The notes beneath the pieces are model-generated. The model saw only the letters and a list, made by a program, of their open reading frames with translations. It had not been told where the DNA came from and searched no databases. Both the position numbers and the translations under genes were made by a program. From Cliona cf. orientalis (taxonomy: Eukaryota; Porifera; Demospongiae; Clionaida; Clionaidae), in NCBI GenBank assembly GCA_963930775.1, contig OZ005696.1, positions 3,472,001-3,536,000 on the forward strand: 64,000 bases of DNA, written 5' to 3'. Shown piece after piece: positions 3,518-61,506 of the stretch (positions are counted from its first letter, which is position 1; each line of letters begins with the position of its first letter).

Positions 3518-3569
3518 TATCAGGCACAGGAGTGAGCAAGCGAAGCGAGCTCACTCCTTGTAATATATA

Positions 3570-3957
3570 AAGTATAAAAAATAATTGAATAAAATTTAAG
3601 GATGAAGTAGGGATGGCAATGCCAAAACGTATACAAACAAGATTTGTAGGGATAAGAGATAATCACAACCACTATACATCCCTACGCTTACTTTTCTCGA
3701 TTATTACAGACCTATTGATGTTGACTTGTTCAAGGCATGCTATCCTTGGAGTGTTCTTGACTTGTATGTGGAAGAAATTCATGTTCTCCCTGTCAGTCAG
3801 TTTTTAATATTTATGATTCCCATGCTACTCAAAAAGCAAGCGTAGGGATGTATAGTGGTTGTGATTATCTCTTATCCCTACAAATCTTGTTTGTATACTT
3901 TTTGGCATTGCCATCCCTACTTCATCCTTAAATTTTATTCAATTATTTTTTATACTT
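3570..3957. mobile_element. Foldback MITE, family F copy 1
   Basis: Terminal inverted repeats of roughly 120 bases start AAGTATAAAAAATAATTGAA and end inward with CATCCCTACGCTT. The right arm is a near-exact reverse complement, with a unique loop of about 140 bases. A second copy with the same arms but a different loop lies at 12302-12692. The short ORF here is only the arm read through. Confidence 0.85.
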
Positions 3958-4009
3958 GTTTCTGCTCTTTTTTTATTGCAAATACAGTAAGTAAAATATA
4001 TATAGAAGA

Positions 4010-4895
4010 TGGGGGGTGAGTTCGCGCGTTCGCAAAATAGTAGCCACGCCCCTCGTTAACTCGCTAAAGCATAGATGCCAAACGGAAGGCTGTTTCAGGC
4101 GGCCAAGTAGCTATGAGACTCTAGTAGCTATCATTTATTTTATCGACTATCTGTCACTGCTGAGCTGGCTGTTATGCCGACTGCTGAGGGCCGTGCCGCT
4201 CCCGTACGTCAGTGAGGCCTCAAGTCTCCATATCCCAGCCTATAGCTAGGTTCGCTCGAGGGTTCACTATATCGCACTCACACTGGCCTAGCTAGCTCGC
4301 GCGGAAGAGCCTGGCGCCTATAGGCTCTAGCTTGGCTAGGCTTGAGGCCTAGAGCGAGCTCTAGCTAGCTACAGTACGCGTACGCTAGCGCTAGCGGCGG
4401 TGGCGCGCGCCGCTGACTACAATCACATGACTTCACCATGGCAACATATTATGAGCATGCGCAAAAATGGCGTATCAGACACACCCTTTTCTAGCGCCGT
4501 ACACACCCACTACGTAACTGTAGAGATAACGCAAAACTAGCGTGTCATGGACCTGCGCGCTACAAAATAGAGTGGATTTATACATAAACTAAGATGAGAG
4601 GTCAAGGCAGTCTTGAGTTAGCCCTGGTAATGAAAAAGAAAGAAAGAAAGAAAGAAAGAAGAAAGAAAGATTGACAAATGGCCTATTTTTTGAACATCTG
4701 GTTCTAGCATATACAATTGTTTTGATGAATGATCTTGGTCTCGTTAGATGCACAATTTGCTGGAGATTCTGATTTTGATACTTAGAAATTTCAAAAAATT
4801 ACCTGTTTTGAGATATTTGGGTATTTGTAATGTATTGTGTATATGGAGTGTCCGGGCCATCCCTACTTATAGAGTCTACCGACTCTATGATACTT
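4010..4895. repeat. Dispersed repeat, family R copy 1
   Basis: A block of about 0.9 kb shares ordered segments with 13330-14105: a start with AGCCACGCC, a middle GCGCGCCGCTGACTAC then CACATGACTTC and CCATGGCAACA, and an identical end CCATCCCTACTTATAGAGTC then TACCGACTCTATGA. No coding frame is shared, so this is a non-autonomous element. A short GAAA microsatellite lies at about 4630-4668. Confidence 0.7.
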
Positions 4896-7573: not shown

Positions 7574-10500
7574 TCACTGATAGTATATGTACATGTGTAT
7601 ACATGTATATAATGTATCTTGTGTACCTCTGATATAAGTATTCTCCACCAAGTCAGCCTGTTGGTGAAGATTGAACGGAATACCGCGGAGTGTGTCAGCA
7701 ACCTGGCGCCAAGTGGGGTAGGGATGTTGATGGACGTAGAGGTCTAGGTAGGCCTCTTTTCTTTGGGTGGGGCTCTGGTAGTCCTTCCGTATTCTGTCTC
7801 TCTCAGACTGTGGTAGTTCTAGGTTGCCTCCAAGCCGATCAACCATCAGAGGGTTCAGTGGTACAAATAGTTCCATTAATTTCTCAGTAGTTATAGTGAG
7901 ATCTGAACAAAGACAAAATTAATGTTTGTATATCATTCAACGTGAGCAAAATAATCAGGGCATACCGTAAAGTCTGGTTAATAAGCGCACATGCTTATTA
8001 AGCGCATATTTTTTAATAAGCGCATGCTTCCTTCCTGTTATTAAGTATTGTCTAATAAGCACACACGCCCAATAAAGACGACAGTAGTATTCACCATTCG
8101 ATCAAGAGTGTCCCATGCTCTACATACAGCTAGAACTAATTACCAACCTATTTCAGATAGCCAGCTGCATGAGATTGGCTATATATATATATATATGCTC
8201 AACACTGTGATGTTCCACTGAGACAGGTTCGGACTCTTGACCTTGACTTCGAAGCGAGTCTCGCCAAAGAAGTCGGCGATTTTTCCACGGTTTTCTTCCA
8301 GCGATGGCTTCCGATCATCATGATCGTAACTCCCATGAACTATTACAGAGCTTATTCCAAGAATCGCTGTGTTTTTAACTTGCTAGCTTTGTGATCGAGA
8401 ACTCGAACGTGTTGGCAGTGGGCAGGGCCAAAAATTCACTCTCTATTAAGCGCACATCATCTAATAGGCGCATGTTTGCTTACCACCGAGAGTGATAAGC
8501 GCATGCCTTATTAACCAGACTTTACGGTATACAAATATATTCCACACAACCCACAATAATAATTGAGGAATTCTGGGTTGTTCATCCCTCGCCTCCACTC
8601 TTGTTAAGTACATGTAATTACCTATCCACACACTCACCACTATTACAGTGTAGGTTAGTAACACTCACTTGTACCATGGTTGTAAATTCTGACCAATCAG
8701 ATTTCTCCATATGAGGTTGATAAATCACTTATCAAACCTTGTATTTACATACAAGGTCTGATAACTACCTCAGGGCACACTAATAGGACTGATAACTACC
8801 TCAGGGCACACTAATAGGACTGTACTGCTACTATGCAAATGCGTTATGATAGTACTATGCGTATGTACTATGGTGAGGTTGAAAGTTAATTGCCATAAGT
8901 GGGCGGAGTAATTGGGTGCTGAGTCGGCGAGCTCAGAGGCTAGGAAGGCACATTTTGTGAAGAGTGTAGTACTGCACTGGCCAACAAGAAAGCCATCGCT
9001 GTGAAAGTTCGACGCATCTTAGCCTTCTTGAAGCCTGGCCTGGCCTAGCCTCCTCCCCTCAAAGGGCCTGGGGACGAGGCTAGGCCTGGCCATGAGCTGA
9101 CGGTAGGTGTATTAAATACTAGACGTTTTTCACGGTCATGACGATTCGAAATTTTTTTGCTGTGTTGCTGGGTGCTGACTTTTATAGCCAGCGCTGTCGT
9201 TGCTACCATGAGGATGCGTCGTCAGGGCCACGTAGCCCATGGTACAAGTCCGTTATATACCTCGGTTCGGTCTCCACGCGATTTACACAACCTCGGGCCT
9301 TCGGCCCTCGGTTGTGTAAATAGCGTAGAGACCTGCACCTCGGTATATAACCTATATATACATGTACATGTACATGCAGCAACATGAAGAGTAATGCTCA
9401 CCTCTAGGAGGGAGATATGATCTCACTTCCTCAACTGCAGCCATCTGGTGATGATAGTATAGTGACCGGACAAGATATTCCCATGAAGAATGTGGGTTGC
9501 AGTTGACATACAAGTCAGCACATTCATCCTCCTTCCCAGGCAAGTTCAACTCCTCTATCTCCACCCACACCTGCGCCTTCACTTTTGGCTCCACCTTCTC
9601 CATGACATGACTGACATTGTCCACTGTCAGAGTGGGGTCTGGGGGGAAGAGGGTGGACAATATCACTACTAGACCTCACACTAAACACACAAGCTCATAC
9701 CAGTACGTAGGGTGCATGGTAAACTACTGAGATATTGCTAATTAATGAGCACAGCAGTTATCAGTAGCATCATTATGAACATGTCAGTAGCATACTACCT
9801 ACATATGTATACCGTAGGATGGGTTTTAATTGCGTAGTTTAATAATTGCGTTCTGGTCAAGTCAGGCCAAATTGCGAATCCAATAATTGCGATGGATGAC
9901 CCCGTACCGTACTGTAGTATACGTGCACGTTTATGTTTGCGAATCTATTAATTGCGAAACGTAGAAAAACTCGCAATTCGCAATTAATAGATACTCGCAA
10001 TTAAAACCCAACCTACGGTATGCAAAGTGGCAGTATTTGGTTACCAGTTGGCATGAATGACTTGGAGTCTCTTGCTAAGGCAAATTCCTTTAAATCATAC
10101 AGTTTCACAGTTAGATGTTCCCACTCAGCCTCAGGATGGTAGTTCACATAGTAGTCTGCACACGCATGGTTCTTTTCTGTGTCAGTGAAGTATCTCCTCT
10201 TAATCTCCTCCAGCAGTGGCCTGGGAATATCAAGTCCACGTTCACCCATCACCTTCACCCACTTGTCTCTTGGTATCTTGTTCAGTATTCGAGCGACATT
10301 GGCCACTGTCATAGTGGAGTCTGGGTGGATAGAGTTATGTGCAGCAACACACTCATTAAAATAAACAGTGCTATGGAGGAATTCATACATGTAGGTAGGA
10401 ATTTACAAGTAACTATATGTACTACATGTACATGTAGGTGCACCAGTACTGGATACACACAGTACATGCAACACACGCATAGTCACATACACATTCCTCA

Positions 10501-13500
10501 TGACATACCGTACTTAATCTAATAGAACACATGGAAAAAAAATAATTTTAATTTTGAAAAACACGTTTTTCTGGTAAGCATCATCAAAATTTAATACTCC
10601 ATATACCGTATCCTCCCGAAGATAAGCCCCCTCCCCTCTTTGACCCTCAAGTTCTTGCACAGGTATGTTTGCCTTGATTATAAGCCCCCCTCCCACCAAA
10701 TAGACTGCATGTGTACACGCACGCGCGAGCGTGTACGTATGTACGTAACCCCACCCTTCAATTGACTACGAGTACAAAGAAGAATCTTTTGTATATGGTG
10801 GTGGCTTTTGGAAAAGCCTATTTTGAAGTCATTCTGTTATGATGGCACTTCTAGCTTGGTGAAGACATTTATGAGCTGGTCGAGATGCTTTTGCTTTCCT
10901 TTGAAGACGTACACACACGGAACAACAAGTCCTTTCCCCACCGCCGATCGTCATCTGTTGCCATCTACTTGATAGGTCATCTCGCTGCCACTCTTTTGGA
11001 GAAAAAATAGCAAACTCTGGATATTTCCCCCAGTACGCGACCAACGATGGTGTCGTCCTTCCACACGGTGACTGCAAATGGGGGCCAAGGGGGGCTTATA
11101 TTCGAGGGAAAGTGCATATTCAACTAGAGTTCTATAGAGCACATACCCCGCGCGCACATTGCGCAATCTATAGATCTGCTTTTGTTGCTGCTTGGTTGTA
11201 TCAAGAGCTTATAGACCCCATAAGCCCTTGGTTGTATAAATATAGGGCTCTTGGTGATATCAGCAAAAACACCACTAACTCTCTCTGCACCAGATCTAGA
11301 CTAGGAGATAATGGTATCTTACATTCTGATTCGATGGGGCTTTGCATTCCAGTCTGCGAATAGCTACTAGCATTATTGACGACCTTTACCAGTCCATAAT
11401 ATGCGCATGAGCAGAAAGCACAAGGCCTGCATGCATGCATAATGCATTGAGTGGGCACTGTCGATAGGCGTGGTTACGAAGGCTAACAAAAAGGCACTAT
11501 TTGTGGCGCTCGTGGACCATATCCCTCGATTCGAAACATACTGAAGCCCGTTTTTTTTCCAAATGCGACTGATTCATTGTGCTTACTAGTCGCTCAGGTG
11601 CCTAGATCTCGAGATAAGGCGATTTTTTTGCTAACGACAACAACGACAACAACAACGACAACGACGACACGACCGATTACTTTACCCCTTGCGCATGTGC
11701 GCGGGGTAAAAATAAGCCCCCTCCCCAGTCTAGGTCATGTCTACTGCTGAAAAAGGGGGGGGGGGGGGGGGGGGGGGGGCTTATTTTGGGGAGGATACAA
11801 TATAAATGTTATGAGATTTGTAAAACTTTAATGCTAATACATTGGATCATGTGTTGTATTCGATTAACAGTAACTACGGTATATACTTACATAACAGCCT
11901 GACACCAATAAGCTAAGGTACGTACATAATTTTAATCGTTTCCATCTCCACACCAAGACCCACTCACCTTGGTGTAGTTCAGCATTGGTCTTGATCTTTT
12001 CAGCCACGTTGGTCTCTCCTGCCCAGCGTAATTGATGAATCAGCATCCTCCATGAGGGTTGGTAGCGACCTTTCCCCCGGAGGAATGCTGCCACCACAGC
12101 TTGCAGACGAGCCTCATCAGAGATGTGCTGAACCTCGATGGCAGCTAGCTTCTTTTGACCATCACTATTGAAGTCATACCAGCTCAACAACCACCCGGCC
12201 AGGTCTCTCCAGCTCATCCTCACTGTCTTCACTGCCTCATACACACTATCAATAGTAAGTAGTGGGGCTGGATAGGGTAGACAACATTCATACTAATTTC
12301 TACAAGTATAAAAAATAATTAAATAAATTGAAGGATGAAGTAGGGATGACAGGGTCAAAAAGTACACAAACAAGATTAGGGATAATCATATCCACTTAGT
12401 CTATATATCCCTACGCTTGCTTTTTGAGTAATTAACTAACCAGTCAGTAATGCAACGATTAAAGCTGATTATCCCCCACCCTTATGAGCATAGTGAATAT
12501 CTTCCACATGCATATCATAAATTAAGGATAGCACCAATGGGTCACCATCAACAGGAGCATGATAATTGAGAAAAGCAAGCGTAGGGATGTATAGACTAAG
12601 TGGATATGATTATCCCTAATCTTGTTTGTGTACTTTTTGACCCTGTCATCCCTACTTCATCCTTCAATTTATTTAATTATTTTTTATACTTGTTTTATTC
12701 TTTTTTTATTGCCCTCTGGGCAATTCATGTCTTTCAACACTAGAGCTACCTGGCACGGTTTGCCCGTTCAATGCTGGACTTTATTATCAATGGGTAAAAC
12801 TACGTCTGTGTTTTCATTCGGCACTATCTTGTAGCTTATCTTCTGTAAATGTGTATAACTAGCAGTGTGTTAACCTTCGATTTCAGGGTACAAGACCATT
12901 GGATGATTGAGTGCATGGTAACCAAAAAGTTAGTCTGTACATGTTTAACATGCTGACCAGACACCAGGCTAGCATTGTGCACAATGGACAGTGGACACTT
13001 GTGTCGAAGAAATGTGCACATGCTTGCTATTAAATATAATATTATACAATGATTGTCCTTCACTTGTAGCTATATACAATGATACATATTAAATTTTATA
13101 GATTGAAATTTCATGGAGGTGTCAGTGTAATGGCTTCTACCAAGCACTATGTTGTTTTAGCTATGCTAAAAGCGGCCGGGTCACTGTTGCGGCAGCCAGT
13201 GAGCCTGGGGCATGGGCCTTGTCTCCTGAAACGTTGGCTCAGTGGCCTAGCTCAATATACACCCTGCATAAGCCTGGTACCCCGAATACCATACTCAATA
13301 GCTTCATCCCATGGCATTGCTGTACCAGTGGGAAGATGAGAATGTAGCCACGCCTCTCAACTCGTCAAGATAGCTGGCTCAGTGACAAAATTGAAACTGA
13401 GAAGGCTGTTTTGGGCCACGTAGTGATGCGGAGTACCTTCTGATTAGGAAGCGATGTGGCAGCTACCATTCAGTTGTCGCTGAACGCTCATAGTCTAGTT

Positions 13501-16455
13501 CGGCAATCGATCGAGCGCGCGCTAGCGCTCGCACTTAGCCTAGCTAGCTGGCTACGGAGCTAGCGCCTTGGATCTGGCCTGGACTGGTCGGCCTATAACG
13601 TCGCGCGCGCCGCTGACTACAGTCACATGACTTCGCGGCAATCACCATGGCAACACATTCTGAGCATGCGTATTGTATGACAAAATGGCGAATCAGACAC
13701 ACCCACTCGCAGAATGCGCTGTACACGCCCACGATTAAATCGCTGTCCTGATAACACAAAAACTAGCGTGCCACAGACGTGCGCGCTACAAAATGGAGTG
13801 GATTTATACTCAAGCTAAGGTGAGAGGTCCTAGCAATATCGAGTTAGTCCGAGAAGAGTAGAAGACTAGAAGATTGAGATTTTTGCATTTTTTATGATTT
13901 CTTTACACAGCTGGTTCAGGCATACCCGATTGTTTCCATGGACGGTTTGGGTCTTGATAGATAGATATTTTGATGTAGATTATGAATATGAAAGTTTAAA
14001 ACCTTAGCATTTTATTTGCTCTGAGTTATTTACTTTTTTGTAATGTATTATATATATGGCATATCCGGGCCATCCCTACTTATAGAGTCTACCGACTCTA
14101 TGATAAAGAAGTACAGGTACATGTACATGTACAGTACAGTTGTATATACAGTTAGCTCATCCAAAGCAGGGGCACATCCAGTGGGGGCTCAGGGGACTCA
14201 AGCACCTCCCCACAAAGGGCTGGCGCAACAGCCAATTCAGAGCTGTGTGACAACTATTGTTACTGATATGCAACAACTAGAAGTTGACCAATAATAAACT
14301 TACTAAATGGTATAGTTTCTCGTCACTACAAGGCCTAAAACAGCCCTCTTTGTCATCAAGCTATCTTCAAGAATGCATTAATGAGGGCGTGGTCAACGTT
14401 TTGGGAATGTGGCTAAAGTTTGCGTGATTGGTTTAGCACTCCCTTCTTTAAATCCTGGATACGCCCCTGCACAGGCCCTTTGAGGGGGACGAGGCTAACA
14501 CCCACAATCTCCTCTCTGTGAATTAGGACTCCTACTAACTACATGTACATGTATGCCAGTACAATGTGTATAAATGACATTGTACACGTAGACTGAATTC
14601 CTACTTCACCATGCACGACCATAAGGATGCATTATCAGGGCCTGGTCTAGCGCCAGCCCCTCCTCAGGGGCAGATGGGGGGGGGGCTTCAGCAGCCCCCC
14701 CCCCCCCATTTTATCATATGCCCATACTATGCAAAAGAGTGCTCTAGTAAAAAAGTACTAAATCAGTCCAGAAACTGCTGCCAGAATGCATCAGAAACGC
14801 TCTCAGAGAGTCAAAATTTCTAAAATTATCTGGGGGAGCATGCCCCCAGACCCCCCTAGGTAAGCTGTGGGCATAATAATATGCCCACTGCCTAACTATC
14901 GTCACAGTACACAGTCAGAGGTTTGAGCTACATGTAAACAGTGTAGAGACCAGCACCTTGGTACATGTATATAACCTACAATAATATTATTGGCTCAAAA
15001 TCTCAATGATCTAGGATGGGGTGGGGTTGTTATTATTATTACATATCATGTATCACTCTAACAGAATAAAAATCTAATCCGTCTAGTATACTGTGCTTTG
15101 CATGTCAGTTGTCCAGTGGAAAGGGAAAATGGGCAGCGGCTCTCAAGTGCTTAATTCAGTTATAATACAATGTACAAGTCACAAAGGCTGTCAGTGCATG
15201 AGATAAATGGCTACGTGTACTGAAGTACAGGTGGGGCCGATTAAAGCCATAGCTCTATGATACGGTATTAAAGAGCAGTAGGTGATCACTGGATCACCGA
15301 TGGCTAATTTTATGTTTGTTTGTTTGTTGTATCTATGTAGCCACATCATGGTAGCTACTCTTCAAGTAGCAACAATAGCACTGGTTATAAAAGTCAGGTA
15401 GAGCAGCACCTATGGCAGTAACACAGCAAAATACCAGTACATTATATTTCGGATTGTTATGACTGTGATAACTACTAATATACAGTGTGCCCTGAGGTGA
15501 TTATCAGATCTTCTATATACAGTGTAGTCCACTTAAATTGAATCTCAAAATCCATGAAAAATATTTGAATTAAACGAAAATTTGAATTACAAAGATCCAT
15601 ATAAACCACTGTATTGAGACCCTGCAATGCTTATTAGTGGAGCATTCAGCCATATATGAAGCTTTAGAATTGTTTTGAGAGTGATTTAGGTAATAGACAC
15701 TTATAGTTTCCTATCTCAAGGAGGATTGTAGTGATCTCCATGTGATCTATGTTCTATATTAATTTTATATAAATATATGCACTTTTGTACACTAAAGCTG
15801 GCTGTAATTTTTCTAATTAAGAGAAAAGACCAATTCAAATTTATGTATTAGTTAACTCTATGTAGGGAATCTGAAAGAATTTGAATTAGATGAAAATTCG
15901 TCTTAAGTGGATTTGAATTAAGACTACACTGTAAATGCAAGATTATATCATATATAGATCGATGGTTTGATATGATTTTAATATGAGGCCACTCCAAGTC
16001 AATCATTAGTTTCTGGTCCACACAAGTGCATGCGGGCGGGTGGGTGGTTACTGAGGACTGTGTGACTATGGTTAATTGAACTAAGGCAGGAAGGGGAAGT
16101 ACATGTACTAAACATGGCCAGCAAATCTTTAGTGCACAACAGCCTGTCAGATCATAATTATCATCACACATACATGTAGCTCATGCTATGTACACATGTA
16201 TGAGCTGTTCAAGTACACAAGCAGTTCAATAATGCAGAATGATAAACTGATGTCCCACAGTGTAATTAATAAGTTTAGTGTTGACCATGCATGTGCGCCA
16301 GGCAATGAGCTCGATAGTCTCGTCCCAGACCCCACCCTTAAAAGGAGGAAAGGGTCCGATATACATTGAGCACTTTTTGGGCCCATGGGGCACACAATAT
16401 GCAGCATGTCATGGCTCATCATGATAATGCAGAGGGGTAGGAGCAGGGGGAATCG

Positions 16456-16500
<45 letters not shown>

Positions 16501-17393
16501 ACTTTTCTAGGAGGGGGGGCATAGCCCCTCCACTTTTTGAGCCTGAACTTTCTTATACCAATTAGCTAATTTAGGAATTCATTGTGTATTTTATACCATG
16601 CATTGTTGAAGTAAATTTTCTTACTGCCTGAATGAGCCTAATTATACAGGAATAACTGATTCAAATTTTAGTCCCCAAAGTGCCTCAGAAAGCATCTGGT
16701 AATACCTAAAATCTCAAAATTTTCTGGGGGAGCATGCCCCCAGACCCCCCTAGGAGAGCTGCAACCAGCAGGGGCATTTGCCCCCAACCTAGTCTGTATC
16801 GGTTTGTATGCCCCCCCCCCCCCCCCCCCCCCCCCACTTTTTAATTGCTTCCTACCCCTCTGTAATGCATCAATGATAGCATTGTATCACATGATAATCA
16901 TGTGCAAACCACATGGCATGAATCTGATTGGTGCGGCAGAATTCAGAAGCCACATCGATCAGCAAGCTCCAGAAAGTGCTCAATGTGTGCCAGACCCTTT
17001 CCTCCTCTGGGGACGAGACTGTGAGTTCAAGATTGAGATCTCAAGAGTATTGAAAATAATATCATGCAGGGCGAGTGACCAGAAACAGATTTGGAGCGGC
17101 CTCAGCCTGCCCGACCACGCCCTCTCCCCCTTCCTCTGTTGTCGACCATGTGCTCCTGTATTTACGCCCATACCTTGCATTGGTCCGCCCTGGGCGACCT
17201 GCCATAGAGGAGGCTGATCCTGAACCTTCTTCAGCGCGCCCTGCCGCTCCATTTCGTACAGAGTGGGATTGATCTCCTTACGTGTGTTCATTCCAACAGC
17301 GCGTGCAAGTTCCAGCGTCGTACAAGGTCGTCCCGATCGCTTGATTTCGCCGATCACTAGCGATGGCACTGAATCGTGTTTACGAAAAGACAT
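7574..17393 (-). CDS. Z-alpha domain plus four death-fold domains, putative nucleic-acid-sensing adaptor
   Basis: Exons in transcript order: 17393-17174, 12267-11968, 10320-10045, 9638-9402, 7902-7574. All junctions are phase 1, giving about 453 residues. Exon 1 (residues 1-73) is a Z-alpha winged helix with TRKEINPTLYEMERQGALKK and QPPLWQV. Asn42, Tyr46, Pro61, Pro62 and Trp64 fall where ADAR1 Z-alpha has N173, Y177, P192, P193 and W195; ADAR1 K169 is Arg here. Each later exon starts with a LT(I/V)-like strand and holds a death-fold, best seen in exon 2 (WRDLAGWLL, then PSWRMLIHQLRWAGE) and exon 5 (PTWRQVADTL). Donors of exons 1-4 and all acceptors read well; the donor-like site at 7626 (GTACAC) is weak, so I take exon 5 as terminal with a stop at 7574. 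Start could also be Met at 17420. The role (Z-DNA/Z-RNA sensing coupled to death-domain assembly in the cytosol or nucleus) is inferred. Main risk: the 4.9-kb first intron could instead separate two genes. Confidence 0.75.
7963..8530. mobile_element. MITE with TACCGTAAAGTC ends
   Basis: Left end TACCGTAAAGTCTGGTTAAT then AAGCGCA; right end TGCCTTATTAACCAGACTTT then ACGGTA. Repeated AATAAGCGCA motifs lie inside both arms. It sits in the intron between the third and fourth death-fold exons. TA at both ends is the likely target site. Confidence 0.85.
8759..8820. repeat. Tandem duplication of a 31-bp unit
   Basis: Two identical head-to-tail copies of a unit starting GATAACTACCTCAGGGCACA and ending CTAATAGGACT. 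Confidence 0.8.
9252..9351. repeat. Foldback of ~100 bp
   Basis: GTTATATACCTCGG at the left pairs with TCGGTATATAAC at the right, and TTTACACAACC pairs with GGTTGTGTAAA around a CGGGCCTTCGGCCCT loop. It lies just downstream of the third death-fold exon. Confidence 0.75.
9810..10020. mobile_element. Short MITE with TACCGTAGG ends
   Basis: Left end TACCGTAGGATGGGTTTTAA then TTGCG; right end CGCAATTAAAACCCAACCTA then CGGTA. Total about 210 bases, nearly all arm-like AATTGCGAAT motifs. It fills most of the intron between death-fold exons 2 and 3 and stops 24 bases from a splice donor. Confidence 0.85.
10603..11798. mobile_element. TIR element interrupted by a nested repeat
   Basis: Left end GTATCCTCCCGAAGATAAGC then CCCC and right end GGGGGCTTATTTTGGGGAGG then ATAC are inverted repeats with two or three mismatches. 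An additional copy of the end motif (GGGGGGCTTATATTCGAGGG) lies inside at about 11090-11110. The interior holds a full family A repeat (11123-11712) and a 25-base G run (11755-11779). It lies in the intron between death-fold exons 1 and 2. Confidence 0.75.
11123..11712 (+). mobile_element. Family A repeat, copy 1
   Basis: Starts ACTAGAGTTCTATAGAGCAC then ATACCCCGCGCGC. Ends CGATTACTTTACCCCTTGCG then CATGTGCGCGGGGTAA. Just inside the right end is a variable AACGACAACGAC tract. The two ends share an inverted TACCCCGCGCGC / GCGCGGGGTA core. Other copies lie at 19238, 24849, 25786 and 36249. Confidence 0.8.
12302..12692. mobile_element. Foldback MITE, family F copy 2
   Basis: Same arm architecture as 3570-3957: ACAAGTATAAAAAATAATTA then GATGAAGTAGGGATGACAGG, closing with CCCTACGCTTGCTTTT, and a near-exact reverse-complement right arm. 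It lies 35 bases upstream of the acceptor of the first death-fold exon, inside intron 1 of the Z-alpha gene. Confidence 0.85.
13330..14105. repeat. Dispersed repeat, family R copy 2
   Basis: Shares ordered blocks with 4010-4895, including GCCGCTGACTACAGTCACAT and the end CCATCCCTACTTATAGAGTC then TACCGACTCTATGA. It contains no gene. Confidence 0.7.
14165..14470. mobile_element. TIR element with GCAGGGGC ends
   Basis: Left end GCAGGGGCACATCCAGTGGG is matched by right end TCCTGGATACGCCCCTGC in reverse complement. It is similar in style to the CAGGGGCGGATCCAGG element at 18600-18934. Confidence 0.65.
14640..14870. repeat. Dispersed repeat with GGGGGAGCATGCCCCC core
   Basis: A G-run/C-run pair is followed by CAGAATGCATCAGAAACGCT and CTGGGGGAGCATGCCCCCAG. 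The same arrangement appears at about 16500-16765, 30035-30250 (decayed), and in reverse at about 48340-48545 and 59370-59600. Confidence 0.65.
15518..15933. mobile_element. Tc1/mariner- or pogo-like MITE
   Basis: Left end TACAGTGTAGTCCACTTAAA; right end GGATTTGAATTAAGACTACA then CTGTA. TA at both ends and a CAGTGTAGTC terminus fit TA-target DNA transposons. No transposase remains. Confidence 0.7.
16440..16835. repeat. Dispersed repeat with long C runs
   Basis: A pure C run occupies about 16456-16500 and a second lies near 16810-16835. Between them is another copy of the CTGGGGGAGCATGCCCCCAG core. It lies in intron 1 of the Z-alpha gene. Confidence 0.7.
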
Positions 17394-17679
17394 CGCACGT
17401 CGGTTGGCGAAAATCAGCAAGGTATTGCCGGTAGCTAGCTTTGTGTTGCGATTGACACCAAATAAATACTGAGGGGAAATCCCTAGGGTGACTCGAACTA
17501 TACCAACCCCAAACCCCGCCCCTTCACGTGATCAATTTTAGCCGGTTTGACCAATCAGAAGCGACCTTTGAAATGGGCTGCGGTGATTATAGGTATCCCG
17601 CAGCCCCTATCAAAGAGTCAACGCTATAGCGCTATTGGTCAACAGCCCCAGGGCAATTGCGCAAGTGGATTTAGCGGAA
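17394..17679. promoter_or_regulatory. Candidate divergent promoter
   Basis: This 286-base interval separates the Met codon chosen for the Z-alpha gene (minus strand) from a candidate start codon on the plus strand at 17680. If translation starts at 17420 the interval is slightly shorter. It is richer in CpG than its surroundings (for example TAGCGCTATTGG, GATCGCC nearby). No TATA element is convincing. Promoter status is inferred only from position. Confidence 0.35.
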
Positions 17680-29200: not shown

Positions 29201-32200
29201 ACCAGATATTTACATGTATGTCTGTTTGGAGTATCATGATCTAGAACATATCAGATTCCCAACCGAAAAATCATGCAATCACTGAATAACAAAGATGATA
29301 CATATAATAGAGGCACAGATATGATGGCCAATCATTGTATACATGTAAATGTACTATACTCATTAATCTATACACTCACCTGCTGCATCACTACAGTCGG
29401 CTCCTCTGAACGGCACCTTCTCAATGGAGCAGACATGATCCTCAGAGAGAGAGAGGCAGGGGTAGTTATAGCCATACCAGGGCACCCCCAGAATCAGCTG
29501 GGTGGTATTGAGACCCAACGTCCTGTACTGGAGTATCCCCGTAGCCGTGGTATTGTAGCCAGAGTTGGCACCGGCCACACATGGCCCGTAGATCTGACTC
29601 CGCTCGTCATATGACATGACGACCAAGTAGTCTGTGACCAGTGCCAGCTCAGCGTATTGGTAGCACCGCCCATCGATGCAGTTGGGGCTCCAGGCAACGT
29701 CAAAAGATATCTGGAATTGTGTGTGTGTATGACATTGTGTATGCGTGTGAAATGGAAGGGGGATGGGTAAGGAATGTACACATGTACGACATCAATGTTC
29801 ATAAAGTCTCAAAGAAAGTTGATCTCACAATGTTATGCCAATAAAGTTTATTATGATGATAATTATACCTAACTACAATGCATTCATACATCAAGGCATA
29901 GAGTGGCACCACAACTTAGTGTTTCAAGGCAGCAGACAAGCTGGTACTACATGTACATGGTCCATAATATGACAAGCACACATCCATGTCGAGTAAAAGT
30001 GTCCATCATATACAGCCATGAAATTAGCAGGGTTTTCATTGAGGGGGGGGGGGGGGGGGATGTGGAGGGGCACTTGCCCAAATCAAACTGGTTAAAGATT
30101 ACAATATACATGTAAATAAATAAACACATTACATTTTTAGCAATACAGTATCAAAATTAATAATAGCACATGAGAATGCACCAGAAACAATCTCAAAGCA
30201 TCTAAAAAGCGAATTCTTCTGGAGGAGCATGCTCCTATATAGGCCTCATATACCCCCAGGGGTCCTGTGCTACCACATAATGACTCGTAAGAGCAAAAAA
30301 AAGAGCACACTGTAGGAACAGATTTCCCAGTTTATGTTGAAACAAAGGAATCATTACATGTGGAATCCTCTTCTATGGACAACATAGACACCTTTGAGTA
30401 TGATCACACTATGTATATAATACAAGCATGCATATGCACGTGACAGACACCACATATTATACCACAGCTGTTGTTATGGTTTACATGTACATGTAGTCTA
30501 TGCACTAGCCATAGCATGCGTTTTTCTACATGTACATCCACAGTAATAATTATGCTTTCATAGGCGTAGGAAGATACTGAAGGTTGGAGGGGCTGAATAT
30601 CCAATTGCGCGCGAAGCGCGCGCGAAAATTTTACGGTCATGCCCACTTCATGTTAAACCACGCCCATTTTTGCACGATCGAGGCTGCTATCACGAGTTTC
30701 TCGGTGAAAAAATTAACTGTAAGTCGAGTAGAATAGATTTGGTAGCTATTGAGGCATATTTACTCATAATCAGGCCTGGTAAATGTTTAAAAATCTTTAT
30801 TGTAACAATACTGGGCTGGAGAACAATGGGGGCTCTGCCCCCCTTCCTAAAATATTGGGGGGGCTACAGCCCCCTCAGCCCCCCCGGTTCCTACGCCTAT
30901 GGCTTTCAACATAGACAATGGCACACACTCTCTCTTCCTCTCTCAATCAAACACATGTACATTGTACACATACGCACATGCAAACACAACATACATGTAC
31001 CGTGTTTATGCTAATAGAACGCAAGCTAAAAAATAATTATGATTTTAAATTTCGCGCGATCTTCTGGTAACGGTCGTCACCCGCTCCGTTAAGATACACT
31101 ATGAAAAATCCTAAAATGCGAATTTTCTTGCGCTAATTCGATCATGTGTTTTATTAGCATAAACACGGTACATGTATACATGTCAACACACCTTATAGTT
31201 AGTATTCGCGTCCTTGAATGTCTTGTATGTCTGTGCGACTAGCTGAGTGAGCAGACTGGCCTGGTCAGTTCCATTCTCGACTGGGTCCTCAGTGTCAATG
31301 TTGATTCCATCAGCGAAGGCAGTCTGCACCTTCTTGAGCTGTTCCTGTATCCAGGGGTCCCACTTGGACTTGTCTGACAGATCCTTGACTGGGTAGATAG
31401 CAGACAATACAACACGAACCTGTAGAGCAAAAATGATAATTTCAATTCTGCTATTGGCACTAGACTAATTAATTTTTTATAGCCTCGTCCTAAAACTCAG
31501 TAACTTTATTTCAATGCATGGGTGTCTATGATGCTATAACGTAGATCAGGTCATTCAGATTGCCAATCAATATTCCAGCAATACCAACTGAGGGCTGATT
31601 AAATGCTGATAATGATCGAGGCTAAGTAAGTTGTCCACAAAGTTATGATTGTAAGTATACAGTCAATAATTATGACTGTAGTGTATCCATTCAAGATAAT
31701 ACAATTGAGCATTAAGAGAGCACTCAATCACTCTTTAGTGACTACCCTGATGCATAAAATTAATCAAAACACAGCAAGTTCCACACAACTGTGCAAATTA
31801 GATCATCAAAGCTAGCCTGTATTGCAACACAGATGTTGAGAAACCCTATCAGCAATCCAACCTAATATAGGGTTTCTATTGATTTTTGCAATATCAGCAG
31901 TGCAGGTAGACTAGTGCAACCTTCACAGAATGCAGACACACTTGGACTCTACTGCTACACTTTGACTGGAGTTACCCCGAGAGAGTGGGCGTGGCAAAGG
32001 AGCTCTGGCTTGAGGTCTGTGAACATGGCCAGTGTTGTTAGCCGAGTGTAGTTGTACATCGGCCAGTTGTCCTGATTAGTAGTAATTTCCATGAAGTAAA
32101 CGTGTGTGTGCATATTTATGTGTATGTGTATGTGTATGCATGTGTGCATGTGAGGAGGGGAAGTAAGATAGGCATATATTATCACACTAGTGATGTGCAC

Positions 32201-48169: not shown

Positions 48170-52401
<4,232 letters not shown>

Positions 52402-57807: not shown

Positions 57808-60800
57808 CTAGTGCCTATTATACATGTAGAGTAGAGCATTTCTTATGTCCTGGGCTAGTTCTACTTTCTCACATTCTTCCAGTACTCGGATCAATGTTCT
57901 CCAAGTTACTGGTCTTTCTCCACTGCCATCAAGCCACTTTTTCAAAATATCAACACTAGTATCAACAACCATGTGCAAGTTGTCCTTGAAGATGATTCCC
58001 ACTTTATTCCCGTTTGAATCTTGCAATAATACACCTCCAATTTTCTTATATGAATTTGCAATTTCTTCTGCAACATCAAAATTTAATGATTTCTTATCAC
58101 CATCACTTGATTTGGGTAGTTCAAGGTGGCGCAGTTTCACCATGTCTGGCCTTTTACTGAATACACTATCTGTCAAGTCTAAATCCCCCTCCTTATTAAC
58201 ATCCACTGTGAAATGAAGAATAATTTTTGTAATACAGTGTATAGTGTCCCAGGCAAGTGCCCACGCACCATACAAAAAAATGTATTTCATGCGGTGAATG
58301 TAGCCAGTGTACTAGCTGTACATGTAGCTGCTTCTATACATTGTGTGTATCCTGGGTAAGCACCCATGCGAACCAAAATCGTAAATAATATTATGTGCAA
58401 GCACCCATGGGCCTGGGACACTACGGTAAGTTTCCTTCTCAACCTATAATATGTACCTGTTGGCTCAGTAGTGGAAGGGGTAGGAAGTTGCATCCATAAG
58501 CCAGCAACAACTATGATTAACATCACCACAAAGACTTGCCACCCTATAGACCAACAATAATATAAAGTCAATAATACTAGCTGGTTTGCCAATGAATTAA
58601 AACTGGAAATAATGTATAGCCAAATGTTTCGAGTTTAGAGATTTTGTGGGTCAGGCTACAACTCAAAATTACGTCATGTAATTGGACCCAGTGGCCTCAT
58701 ACAATTATCGTATGTTGCATTATTTTTGATTTGATGATCTTTACCTATCCTATCCTAAGTTCAAGCATGCACAGTCAAACTTATGCTTAGTGGGTGTGGC
58801 TGATAAATGAGCACGGTACTTGCAGCTGTACCAACTAAAGTTCTCTAGAACACACACCCTGCATGTACTGCATCCTGTGTCTAGCTATCCGTGCACACAT
58901 GCACGTGTCTGTTGATGACCTTTACCTACATGTACATTATTATAGGTTGTGATATAGTACGGATGTCCATACTACATGTATATTATCTCTATGGTTGTGT
59001 ATAGGGGTAGGCTATAATGCTATTCTCAAATGCTCAAAAATAATGCTCAAGAAATGCACCTATAATTAATTTCCAATACATTGCCCATTATGCTCAAGTT
59101 GAACTGACTATAATGCCAATATGAGACATGAGGAGATTTGGTTACACTATCGTCGAATGTAGCAATTTCAGTTTTATATGTGCTCGGATTCGAAAGTGAG
59201 TACAATGCTGTACCAGCTGATTGATCAATTCTTTACGCCCATAATATGTACATGTAGTCCAGGCATTGTAACAAAGGTCGAGTAACAGCTACATGTACTT
59301 ACTTGCAATCGTGTGCCCTAAATTCTCAAAATTATGCCAGTTGATCAAGGGTGGAGAACAGGTAGCAAAAGTTGGGGGGGGGGGGGGGGGGGGGCTCAAA
59401 CCCTTGACTGTGTACTTTGACAATAGGGGGGTCTGGGGGCGAAAATTTTGGAAATTTCGACTCTGAGAGTGTTTCTGATGCATTCTGGCAGCAGTTTTTG
59501 GACTGATTTAGTAGCTATTTTTACTAGAGCACTCTTTTGCAAACACCCGGAACTACATGTATGTTGCTGCAATTTTATAGTATGGGCATGTGATATAATT
59601 TTGAGCATAATAGGTATGTGTAAGCATTTGAGAATTATGCTAGCATTATGGGCATCAATAGGGGCGGAGAATGGGGGGGGGGGCTTCAGCCCCCTACTTT
59701 GGAAACAAGGGGGACTGAGGGCCCTCCCCCCCCCCCCCCCCCCATAATTTACCTACCCCTAGTTGTGCACATGAGCAGAAAGCACATTGGGTAGAGTCAA
59801 TAGGCATAGCCAATAAAAATGCAGTGTTAGCAATGCTTGTGGGCCTTGCCAAAGCAAAGGATTTGAAGCACAGTTTCTGGACGGATTTCCTATACTTACA
59901 AGTTGTTCAGATGCCTAGATCTCGAAATCTGACAGTGATAACGGACGGCAACAAAACCGATTGCTTTACCCCTACATGTAGCTTGCTGCACATGCATGCA
60001 CTTGTGGGGAACATGTAAATGCACTAGGAAGAGGACAAGTACTGTAGTTATTTTCAGCCACTTACAAATCTACCACTCTACATACAGACGGAGATGCGGG
60101 GAAATCCATATTATCTCCAAAAATTTTCGAGGTGGAGTTTTGTGGATCAGAGCACATGGCCACAAAACTAAATTTCAAATTCATAGCAGGTGCAAAAAAG
60201 TCGACATGAATATTCAGTTTTGAGAAGAATTTGGCAAAACCACAAAATATTTATCCTTCATATTACTGTAGAAACTGGTTGTTAAGCACATGCGCTTATA
60301 ATACGCGGCAGCAAGAAAAATAATATGCGCTTAACAAAAAGTATGCGCTTAACAGGAAGCATGCGCTTAATTAAAAGTGCTACATGTAAAACACGGTAGG
60401 TGGGGCATGCATAAAGAACGTGTTGAGGGTAGAAAGGCCTACAACAGTGGCCAAGAAGCAACCAGAGAGCGTAATTCTCGACGTTTTCTTCTCCAGCCTA
60501 CTTCTAGCCTTCTTTCTGGGCTCATGTAACCGATCGCTCGTCGTTCAGCTGGCTTACTGGGCATATGCGCCTAACAAAGAGCAGTAAAGCTCGCACAAAA
60601 ATATGCGCTTAATAAAAAGTATGCGCTTAACAGCGAGCAGCAGTTTCTACGGTATTTTAGGGTTAGCCTCATCCCCAGTCTCCCCAATCTTCTTCAACAC
60701 ACGCGAGAGAAAAGATCGGGGAGACTGGGGATGAGGCTAACCTAGCCTGGGAACGAGGCTAACTACATGTATACAGTACTTTGGATCAAATAACCACTAG

Positions 60801-61506
60801 CAACCTCAAACGGTTCAGTGCAAAAGATGTACTTACCACACCACTTAGAAGGAGGCTGAGGCGTAACTGGTGACATCTTGCCATCATCACTGACCACCTT
60901 AGGTCCACTTGTACCACTCGAGATCCTCTGGGTCAAGGTACTGCCTGAAGGGTCAATGCTTTCAGCCAAGTTTCTATGACCAATAAGTCTGAGTGCATTG
61001 GCAATTATTTGCCATGATCTCCTTTCAGTGGGCCAATTTCTCCACCAGTAATTGAGTACTTCTGTCATCCTTCGATCAACCCTCGGAAAATCTTGTTCAA
61101 TTTTGTCTAGTTCATGTGGAGGTACTTTCAACTGGAGTCCCAGTTGATACCAGGCTGTGACTGGTTTTAGCGCGTTGGTGAGGTTCAACAAGGTAAGTTC
61201 TGCAACACAACAGTAATAAGTGCAGGTATTATTGGTGATGGAGCACAAACTAAATAGCTTGCAGGAACTTTCTCACTTCTTACGTAACCGCATGAGTCTG
61301 AAGCTAGTGCATGTGACACTGCATTATGACCAGCTAGGTCTGCAGCAAGCATAGTGATACTTAATTATATTATGGTGAACAGACTTAGTGATCAAGGCCA
61401 AGCTATAGGTACCCATTGCATGTGAGACTTTGCTGTACTAGGCTTGCTTCTGGCCGAAATAACTAAATAGTAACATACCCACTGTGCTGGCATCAACCAT
61501 GACCAT
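57808..61506 (-). CDS. Death domain - hydrophobic segment - death domain protein
   Basis: Exons in transcript order: 61506-61479, 61199-60837, 58543-58457, 58205-57808; all junctions phase 1; 291 residues. It starts MVMVDASTV. Exon 2 (residues 10-130) is a death domain (AWYQLGLQLKVPPHELDKIE, then RSWQIIANALRLIGHRNLAE) followed by a Ser/Thr/Pro linker. Exon 3 (131-159) encodes WQVFVVMLIIVVAGLWM, a probable membrane helix, then LPTPSTTEPT. Exon 4 ends with a second death domain (AEEIANSYKKIGGVLLQDSN, then DILKKWLDGSGERPVTWRTL) and a short tail to TAG at 57808. Death domains usually build homotypic signalling complexes in the cytosol. A single span would put the two domains on opposite sides of a membrane, which is odd; skipping the 87-base exon would keep frame and give a soluble protein. 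Exon 1 is short and is the least certain part. Confidence 0.78.
58839..60250. other. Repeat-rich intron of the death-domain gene
   Basis: Contains a fragment resembling the family A start (58839-58870), a reverse GGGGGAGCATGCCCCC-type repeat with G and C runs (59370-59740), and a decayed family A piece (about 59762-59995) ending ACCGATTGCTTTACCCC. No coding exon seen. Confidence 0.55.
60264..60654. mobile_element. MITE with TACTGTAGAAACTGG ends
   Basis: Left end TACTGTAGAAACTGGTTGTT then AAGCACATGCGCTT; right end GCGCTTAACAGCGAGCAGCA then GTTTCTACGGTA. Inner ATGCGCTTAA motifs recall the AATAAGCGCA motifs of 7963-8530, suggesting related families. Confidence 0.8.
60663..60763. repeat. Foldback with TTAGCCTCATCCCCAG ends
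   Basis: GTTAGCCTCATCCCCAGTCT then CCCC pairs with GGGGAGACTGGGGATGAGGC then TAAC, followed by a further CCTGGGAACGAGGCTAAC end. Same terminal family as 56557-56919 and 63206-63518. It lies 73 bases from the donor of death-domain exon 2. Confidence 0.8.

Follow-up and report, generated by a model that had tools for sequence, protein, structure and literature searches.

A candidate young chimeric gene that would join a Z-alpha domain to death-fold and Roc-COR modules in the sponge Cliona cf. orientalis

Can a sponge gene couple the recognition of left-handed nucleic acids to death signalling, and from what parts would such a gene have been assembled? The question is raised by a minus-strand locus of Cliona cf. 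orientalis at positions 7574 to 17393 of the window, by which we mean the whole 64,000-nucleotide stretch of DNA analysed here (positions 3,472,001 to 3,536,000 of contig OZ005696.1). A preliminary description had recognised a Z-alpha exon followed by four death-fold exons and had interpreted them as a sensor of Z-form nucleic acids with death domains as its signalling output. The ADAR1-like parent of the Z-alpha exon, the Roc-COR half of the gene and the tiny native first exon of the relatives had escaped that description. Its reading survives as the best single explanation of the locus, the splice join between its two halves being unproven. In our judgement the evidence tips modestly towards a young chimera of a Z-alpha domain, four death domains and a Roc-COR module, for which an ADAR1-like gene would have supplied a captured first exon. 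The broader proposition, that an early-branching animal recently and independently built a ZBP1-like death sensor by setting an ADAR1-like first exon onto a death-domain/Roc-COR receptor without a first exon of its own, appears to us evenly balanced.

Exon 1 (17174 to 17393, minus strand) opens with an ATG at its 17393 end and comprises 73 codons plus one base, ahead of a proposed phase-1 donor, AAG|GTATGG; if unspliced, its frame stops at 16980. The 73-residue product matches the PF02295 profile with an E-value of 2.8e-12 and 46.9 bits, exceeding the curated cut-off of 21. A phmmer search of the PDB returned ADAR1, ZBP1, PKZ and viral Z-alpha chains (best E 2.7e-10), and a coat protein, the last of the 23 distinct sequences at E ≤1 (E 0.95), must be a chance match. 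The Z-contacting residues N173, Y177, P192, P193 and W195 of human ADAR1, with roles as given in the portion of PMC11298590 consulted, correspond to N42, Y46, P61, P62 and W64 of exon 1. An AlphaFold2 (AF2) model built from four sequences (mean pLDDT 85.3) has three helices followed by two strands, and its top 18 matches in the PDB all come from ZBP1, PKZ or ADAR1, as Z-alpha or Z-beta chains; 3 matches only reach E ≤0.001, and unrelated winged helices rank lower. Entries 2acj, 3irq, 1qbj, 3f21 and 2gxb are among the matches of exon 1. At four other positions in human ADAR1 numbering, K170 is kept as K39, K169 is replaced by R38, R174 by P43 and T191 by Q60. Profile, contact residues and predicted fold agree in identifying exon 1 as a Z-alpha domain, as had been proposed from its sequence signature, and the predicted structure, a check suggested at the outset, is a winged helix.

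The origin of this exon can be traced on the same chromosome. A genome search with exon 1 gave five matches, namely exon 1 itself, one at 99% and three weaker ones, and the four non-self matches fall in a single neighbourhood (C8:880759-882342, C8 being the chromosome that carries the window). The duplicated segment (17110 to 17455, minus strand) takes in the 5' untranslated region (UTR), the ATG, the Z-alpha coding sequence and the 65 bp that start at the proposed exon end; its parent lies at C8:881589-881942, about 2.6 Mb from the copy in the window. By blastn the two align over 346 bp at 95% DNA identity, with 10 mismatches and one 8-bp gap between 17143 and 17144. Five mismatches are found in the 62 bp of 5' UTR, five in the 219 coding bp and none in the final 65 bp, and the encoded proteins share 72 of 73 residues. 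Sequence upstream of the segment is also alike in the parent, in gapped form, as judged by eye.

At the parent locus, the near-identical copy starts a 425-amino-acid open reading frame in which Pfam recognises a second Z-alpha domain; a third resemblance to Z-alpha within it is weak (E 0.7). An adenosine deaminase domain follows downstream on the same strand (C8:878316-879335, E 2.6e-102), and a putative dsRBD-like reading frame was seen there as well. The locus reads as an ADAR1-like gene, assuming that its exons form one gene, and sequence comparison shows exon 1 to be derived from its 5' end by recent, partial copying. The possibility that exon 1 belongs to a larger exon family was rejected, only two near-identical copies being found, one in the window and one in the ADAR1-like gene. 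The deaminase domain has 11 matches in the genome, at the parent and at other loci (C8, C13, three on C10, C15 and C3); none of the 11 lies near the window or the candidate chimeric gene, and the C13 locus carries in-frame stops. Head-to-head with the ADAR1-like gene, at about 882.05-883.25 kb of C8 on the plus strand, stands a 399-amino-acid frame that carries a Z-alpha domain at its N-terminus (E 5.4e-7) and weakly matches a helix-turn-helix at its C-terminus (E 0.0056). The ATGs of this frame and of the ADAR1-like gene are about 170 bp apart, and the two may share a promoter.

The parent also informs on the proposed donor and on the age of the link. In the parent, the open frame runs on through the bases that follow the donor; since the same donor-like bases sit inside that frame, the donor of exon 1 would be a cryptic site. 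The 8-bp gap of the copy shifts the ADAR1 frame just 3' of it. The preliminary description had suggested that the linking of left-handed nucleic acids to death signalling arose either more than once or very early. A recent copy of an ADAR1-like first exon would make the link young and lineage-specific, which argues for independent invention and against an ancient origin, so that the first of these alternatives is supported and the second is not.

Upstream of the duplicated segment, a dispersed repeat of about 95 bp (17498 to 17592, minus strand), with at least 39 further genome matches at 91-97% identity, is possibly linked to the movement of the exon. Between the two, at 17474-17483 and about 80 bp upstream of the Z-alpha ATG, the window carries a palindromic kappaB-like sequence, GGGATTTCCC, of which the equivalent in the parent is GGGATTTTCCCC. 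The window holds 12 kappaB-like matches for 7.0 expected, a count reached by 13 of 100 shuffles and not clearly above chance.

The death-fold half of the locus consists of exons 2 (11968 to 12267), 3 (10045 to 10320), 4 (9402 to 9638) and 5 (7627 to 7902), all on the minus strand. Each has a length divisible by three, GT/AG borders and phase 1, and the splice sites are common to relatives elsewhere in the genome, which bears out the coordinates and phase first given for them. At the exon 2 acceptor, a 22-bp stretch is identical in two of four copies on C5. The exon 5 donor, AGAG|GTACAC (with a stop at 7574 if unspliced), has the same position in the 8 relatives listed, one of which has gtatgc.

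Within the window, the PF00531 Death profile reaches exon 5 alone, with E-values of 0.0016-0.0022 that are under the curated cut-off, and has no match on the window's own exons 2, 3 and 4. Scanned against copies of each exon (E up to 0.05), the same model matched exon 2 in 8 of 10 copies (best 2.4e-7), none of them the window's own, exon 5 in 7 of 9, and exons 3 and 4 in 0 of 11 each, for which reason the last two are termed death-fold and not Death family. Copies of exon 2 additionally match the C-terminal Death exon of the death-domain/Roc-COR family described below (tblastn E down to 1.6e-7). Judged mostly on their relatives, exons 2 and 5 (death domains 1 and 4) probably belong to the Death family. 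With hhalign, exon 3 aligns to exon 5 (96%, E 3.6e-9) and to exon 4 (99%, E 7e-18), and profile comparison gives no tie between exons 2 and 5 (probability 3%). The AF2 model of exon 3 is a six-helix bundle (pLDDT 88.5) that in the PDB most resembles the death domains of Fas/FADD and DR3 (TM 0.74, probability 1.00), the best Foldseek E against the PDB being 0.055 and no match falling at ≤0.001. Exon 3 (domain 2) is a death-fold module by profile homology and predicted structure and exon 4 (domain 3) by homology to exon 3 alone, the weakest support of the four. The four death-fold exons first described can keep that fold label, whereas membership of the PF00531 family finds no profile match for exons 3 and 4.

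Some ROCO proteins, the Roc-COR GTPases, carry death domains, and by sequence exons 2-5 are one copy of an expanded ROCO-like family of death-domain/Roc-COR genes. A genome search with exon 2 gave at least 82 matches, and the 63 with E < 1e-20 were tabulated and paired by a script with all 35 first-exon matches and with 61 of 64 Roc-COR matches, the last three (57% identity) being left out. A Roc-COR-like exon was found at most 25 kb downstream on the same strand in 58 of the 63 loci, the window's included, with the nearest exon taken in each case, which in tandem clusters may have credited a locus with the exon of its neighbour. For the window's gene, the Roc-COR exon (C8:3462286-3464361) lies outside the window, on the same strand and about 15 kb downstream; it was recognised as a match of 83% identity and is open over 716 amino acids. 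The 300 bp at its start, read directly, contain the conserved phase-1 acceptor, and the remainder is known from the 83% match. In a relative, this exon reaches E 3e-7 for COR-A and E 6.6e-4 for Roc, neither of them over its curated cut-off, and the C-terminal exon matches Death (E 1.1e-6). The coding region, which had been drawn up to 7574, need not end there, and the idea of an orphan death cassette devoid of a Roc-COR exon was rejected once that exon had been located beyond the window.

The expansion of the family is chiefly on C8, C5, C11, C1 and C9, with at least 64 matches for the Roc-COR exon beside those of exon 2, and several copies stand in tandem on C5 at a spacing of about 7 kb. In the genome as a whole, 150 or more matches to the Death domain exceed the cut-off (150 of 1292 first-look candidates scored).

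In the relatives, the gene begins with a tiny phase-1 first exon situated 0.2 to 2.2 kb upstream of exon 2, for example ATGGCGGAGCAGGCAGTTTTC...GAGG|GTAAGT, which encodes a peptide such as MAEQAV..KPSGREG without a recognised domain. A nucleotide profile recovers this native exon in 10 of 10 readable relatives, each held out in turn (E 9e-14 to 1e-39), the tandem copies among the ten not being independent. Over the whole 64-kb window, a nine-sequence profile detects no native first exon; its best E is 0.081, and this is not over the exon. The window's gene has apparently lost the native first exon of its family, with the Z-alpha exon standing in its place, and this apparent loss strengthens the sensor reading. 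By self-blastn, two parts (12294-12712 and 13600-14105) of a stretch at 12294 to 14105, with no strand assigned, are repeat-derived and recur at 3561-3979 and 4400-4892, the portion between them being unmatched, and the repeat-derived DNA starts about 26 bp upstream of exon 2. A GC-rich patch at about 13.6 kb was considered as a separate promoter for the death exons and rejected; it is probably repeat, since a second copy exists at 4.4-4.9 kb.

The domains, phases, duplication and family architecture, with no detectable native exon, are direct observations, to which the following scenario may be fitted. A 5' piece of a few hundred bases of the ADAR1-like gene, containing the 5' UTR, the ATG and the first Z-alpha domain, would have been copied about 2.6 Mb along the chromosome and would have landed in the 5' region of a death-domain/Roc-COR gene without a detectable native first exon. 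A sequence that resembles a donor and stands in phase 1 within the ADAR1 open frame would now be spliced to exon 2, and the predicted protein of about 1,100 residues would combine a Z-alpha domain, four death domains and Roc-COR. Same strand, right phase, a 5' UTR and ATG carried along and open frames downstream are all features that fit such a replacement. Splicing and expression are presumed in this scenario, and its functional steps, ligand binding and signalling, are modelled on the behaviour of the domain families. The Z-alpha domain could bind Z-RNA or Z-DNA of viral, retroelement or stress-derived origin, and molecules would cluster on the ligand; the clustered death domains could then nucleate a death-fold assembly that draws in death-fold adaptors, the Roc-COR GTPase acting as a switch or gate or as a dimeriser. 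The animal may in this way have a new virus or stress sensor.

Whether exon 1 is indeed joined to exon 2 can be approached through the donor and through traces of selection. The donor of exon 1 scores 4.3, the best among the 22 GT sites listed in its region, on a matrix built from 49 family donors that include those of the window's exons 2-5. The coding differences between exon 1 and its parent are 4 synonymous and 1 nonsynonymous; set against each other, 1 of 164 nonsynonymous sites and 9 of 117 synonymous and UTR sites differ (Fisher P 0.002). Exons 2-5 contain 0 stops in 359 codons. With a divergence since the copy of about 4% per lineage, estimated from the 9 of 117 silent or UTR differences, they would have stayed free of stops by chance with P of about 0.14 (0.08-0.23), and of both stops and frameshifts with P of about 0.014 (0.005-0.04), the latter on the assumption that indels amount to 8% of substitutions. 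Branch-specific selection on exons 2-5 was rejected as evidence. Pairwise dN/dS is 0.50-0.98 among eight relatives and 0.61-0.85 against the window copy (two of eleven cassettes, for which the exon 5 sequence was not included, being left out), and private changes number 7 synonymous and 14 nonsynonymous in the window for 30.5 and 42.5 summed over the other eight. As the entire family evolves fast, dN/dS fails to separate functional from relaxed copies.

A number of observations weigh against the join or against a working product. The 17174/12267 junction is inferred from genome sequence alone, and the fusion is known from a single assembly of one genome. The 49 family donors score 4.9-13.2, all above the donor of exon 1, which is moreover cryptic within the parent's open frame, and intron 1 would be 4.9 kb long. 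This intron offers two alternative mini first exons of 21 and 8 codons, with donors scoring 5.3 and 7.2; because such candidates are at chance level, with a mean of 4.4 in 18 stretches of equal size, they leave the odds for the chimera unchanged. If only the parent is taken as constrained, the Fisher test gives P 0.04-0.12, a range that depends on how the unchanged bases 3' of the donor are counted and in which the branches are not separated; once the parent's constraint is allowed for, the selection signal on exon 1 is only suggestive. Constraint on exons 2-5 is not above that of their fast-evolving family, and exon 4 has lost about 10 codons in frame relative to relatives, as judged from the codon alignment. 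When the genome is searched by BLAST with two promoter queries, the native first exon turns up in 31 of 63 loci, a lower bound only, since two loci found by the profile were missed; absence by BLAST alone is common, and the argument from the missing exon rests for that reason on the profile. Near the window's gene, a search at E up to 1e-8 yielded no family-type C-terminal Death exon. Exon 2 is separated from the Roc-COR exon by 19.6 kb, a distance that does not exceed 10 kb in any of the other 57 loci with both. The long intron before the Roc-COR exon is partly explained by a Pao/BEL-like retroelement, whose frames lie between exon 5 and the Roc-COR exon, opposite to the gene (L062:1216-6818, plus strand), with DUF1759, Peptidase_A17 and integrase zinc finger domains, the last under its cut-off.

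In the main rival, which we find rather unlikely, a truncated ADAR1 fragment, silent or encoding a short Z-alpha-only protein that ends at the stop at 16980, would lie unjoined upstream of a ROCO/death gene whose 5' end is gone or whose first exon has escaped recognition. The copy is partial, its 8-bp gap shifts the ADAR1 frame just past a weak donor that is inside an open frame in the parent, the introns are partly repeat-derived, and either mini first exon, with its better-scoring donor, is conceivable. Yet decay would be expected of a gene deprived of its start, and here the frames of exons 2-5 and of the Roc-COR exon are open and their splice sites conserved; most substitutions in exon 1 are silent, the strand is right and so is the phase, and the mini first exons do not exceed chance. 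A second rival, which we judge improbable, is promoter capture only, the ADAR1-derived 5' end driving the ROCO gene and the Z-alpha domain being incidental, non-binding or confined to a minor isoform. It can draw on the 5' UTR within the copied segment and on the kappaB-like site upstream, of a type not clearly enriched in the window, and is opposed by the low nonsynonymous change, the well-predicted fold and the retention of all five key Z-alpha contact residues. An assembly artefact that misplaced an ADAR1 piece beside an unrelated locus, conceivable where one assembly is concerned, is very improbable, as 10 substitutions and an 8-bp gap set the copy apart from its parent within 346 bp and the sequence on its borders is different.

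The chimera, if real, would join a small company. According to the text seen of a 2023 review, only ADAR1, ZBP1 and PKZ are known in eukaryotes (PMC10523160), and the portions consulted of later surveys add Z-alpha candidates (PMC11298590, PMC11293857). In the literature surveyed, a non-exhaustive set outside of which supplementary files fall, no protein combining Z-alpha with a death domain or with Roc-COR was found. Within that literature, the union of Z-alpha with an effector is already known from ADAR1, ZBP1 and PKZ, and the combination with death domains and Roc-COR would be new. ZBP1, which signals via RHIMs to RIPK3 and RIPK1 (PMC11535224, as far as consulted), resembles the predicted sponge protein in pairing Z-alpha with parts that trigger cell death; it differs in that the sponge gene would have one Z-alpha, death domains and Roc-COR, with the Z-alpha recently copied from an ADAR1-like gene of the same genome. 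PKZ, the fish Z-alpha kinase, also joins Z-alpha to an immune effector, a kinase where the sponge gene would have death domains.

Sponge ADAR1-like genes are the probable direct source of exon 1. The ADAR1 of Amphimedon queenslandica has three Z-binding domains, one dsRBD and one deaminase, according to the part of PMC4323055 seen, and the Cliona parent has two Pfam Z-alpha domains, a third weak look-alike and a deaminase downstream, whereas no deaminase is near the candidate chimeric gene. With the ROCO relatives, this gene shares the Roc-COR exon and the death domains, exons 2-5 and the Roc-COR exon all matching one expanded family; it differs in its start, a tiny native exon in the ten relatives read and none detectable in the window copy.

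If the proposed reading holds, death signalling came to be coupled to left-handed nucleic acids without a shared origin with vertebrate ZBP1, as a recent parallel and not as an ancient link. Death domains and a GTPase would replace RHIMs, and ADAR1 would be the donor of the sensor; in mammals, ADAR1 averts ZBP1-driven disease (PMC9329096, portion consulted). A nucleic-acid sensor would have been caught soon after its birth, with parent, recipient family and product still recognisable, and the Z-ligands and death adaptors used by an invertebrate would become directly testable.

Elsewhere in the window, two further death-fold frames are present on the minus strand, at 57811-58311 and 60766-61272; the second matches Death with E 3.1e-6, the first with E 0.038 in a shorter reading only. 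Fragments resembling glycosyl hydrolase family 18 (29366-29791, minus strand, E 4.1e-6) and a tetraspanin (50964-51359, plus strand, E 1.8e-4) were also observed, both under their curated cut-offs.

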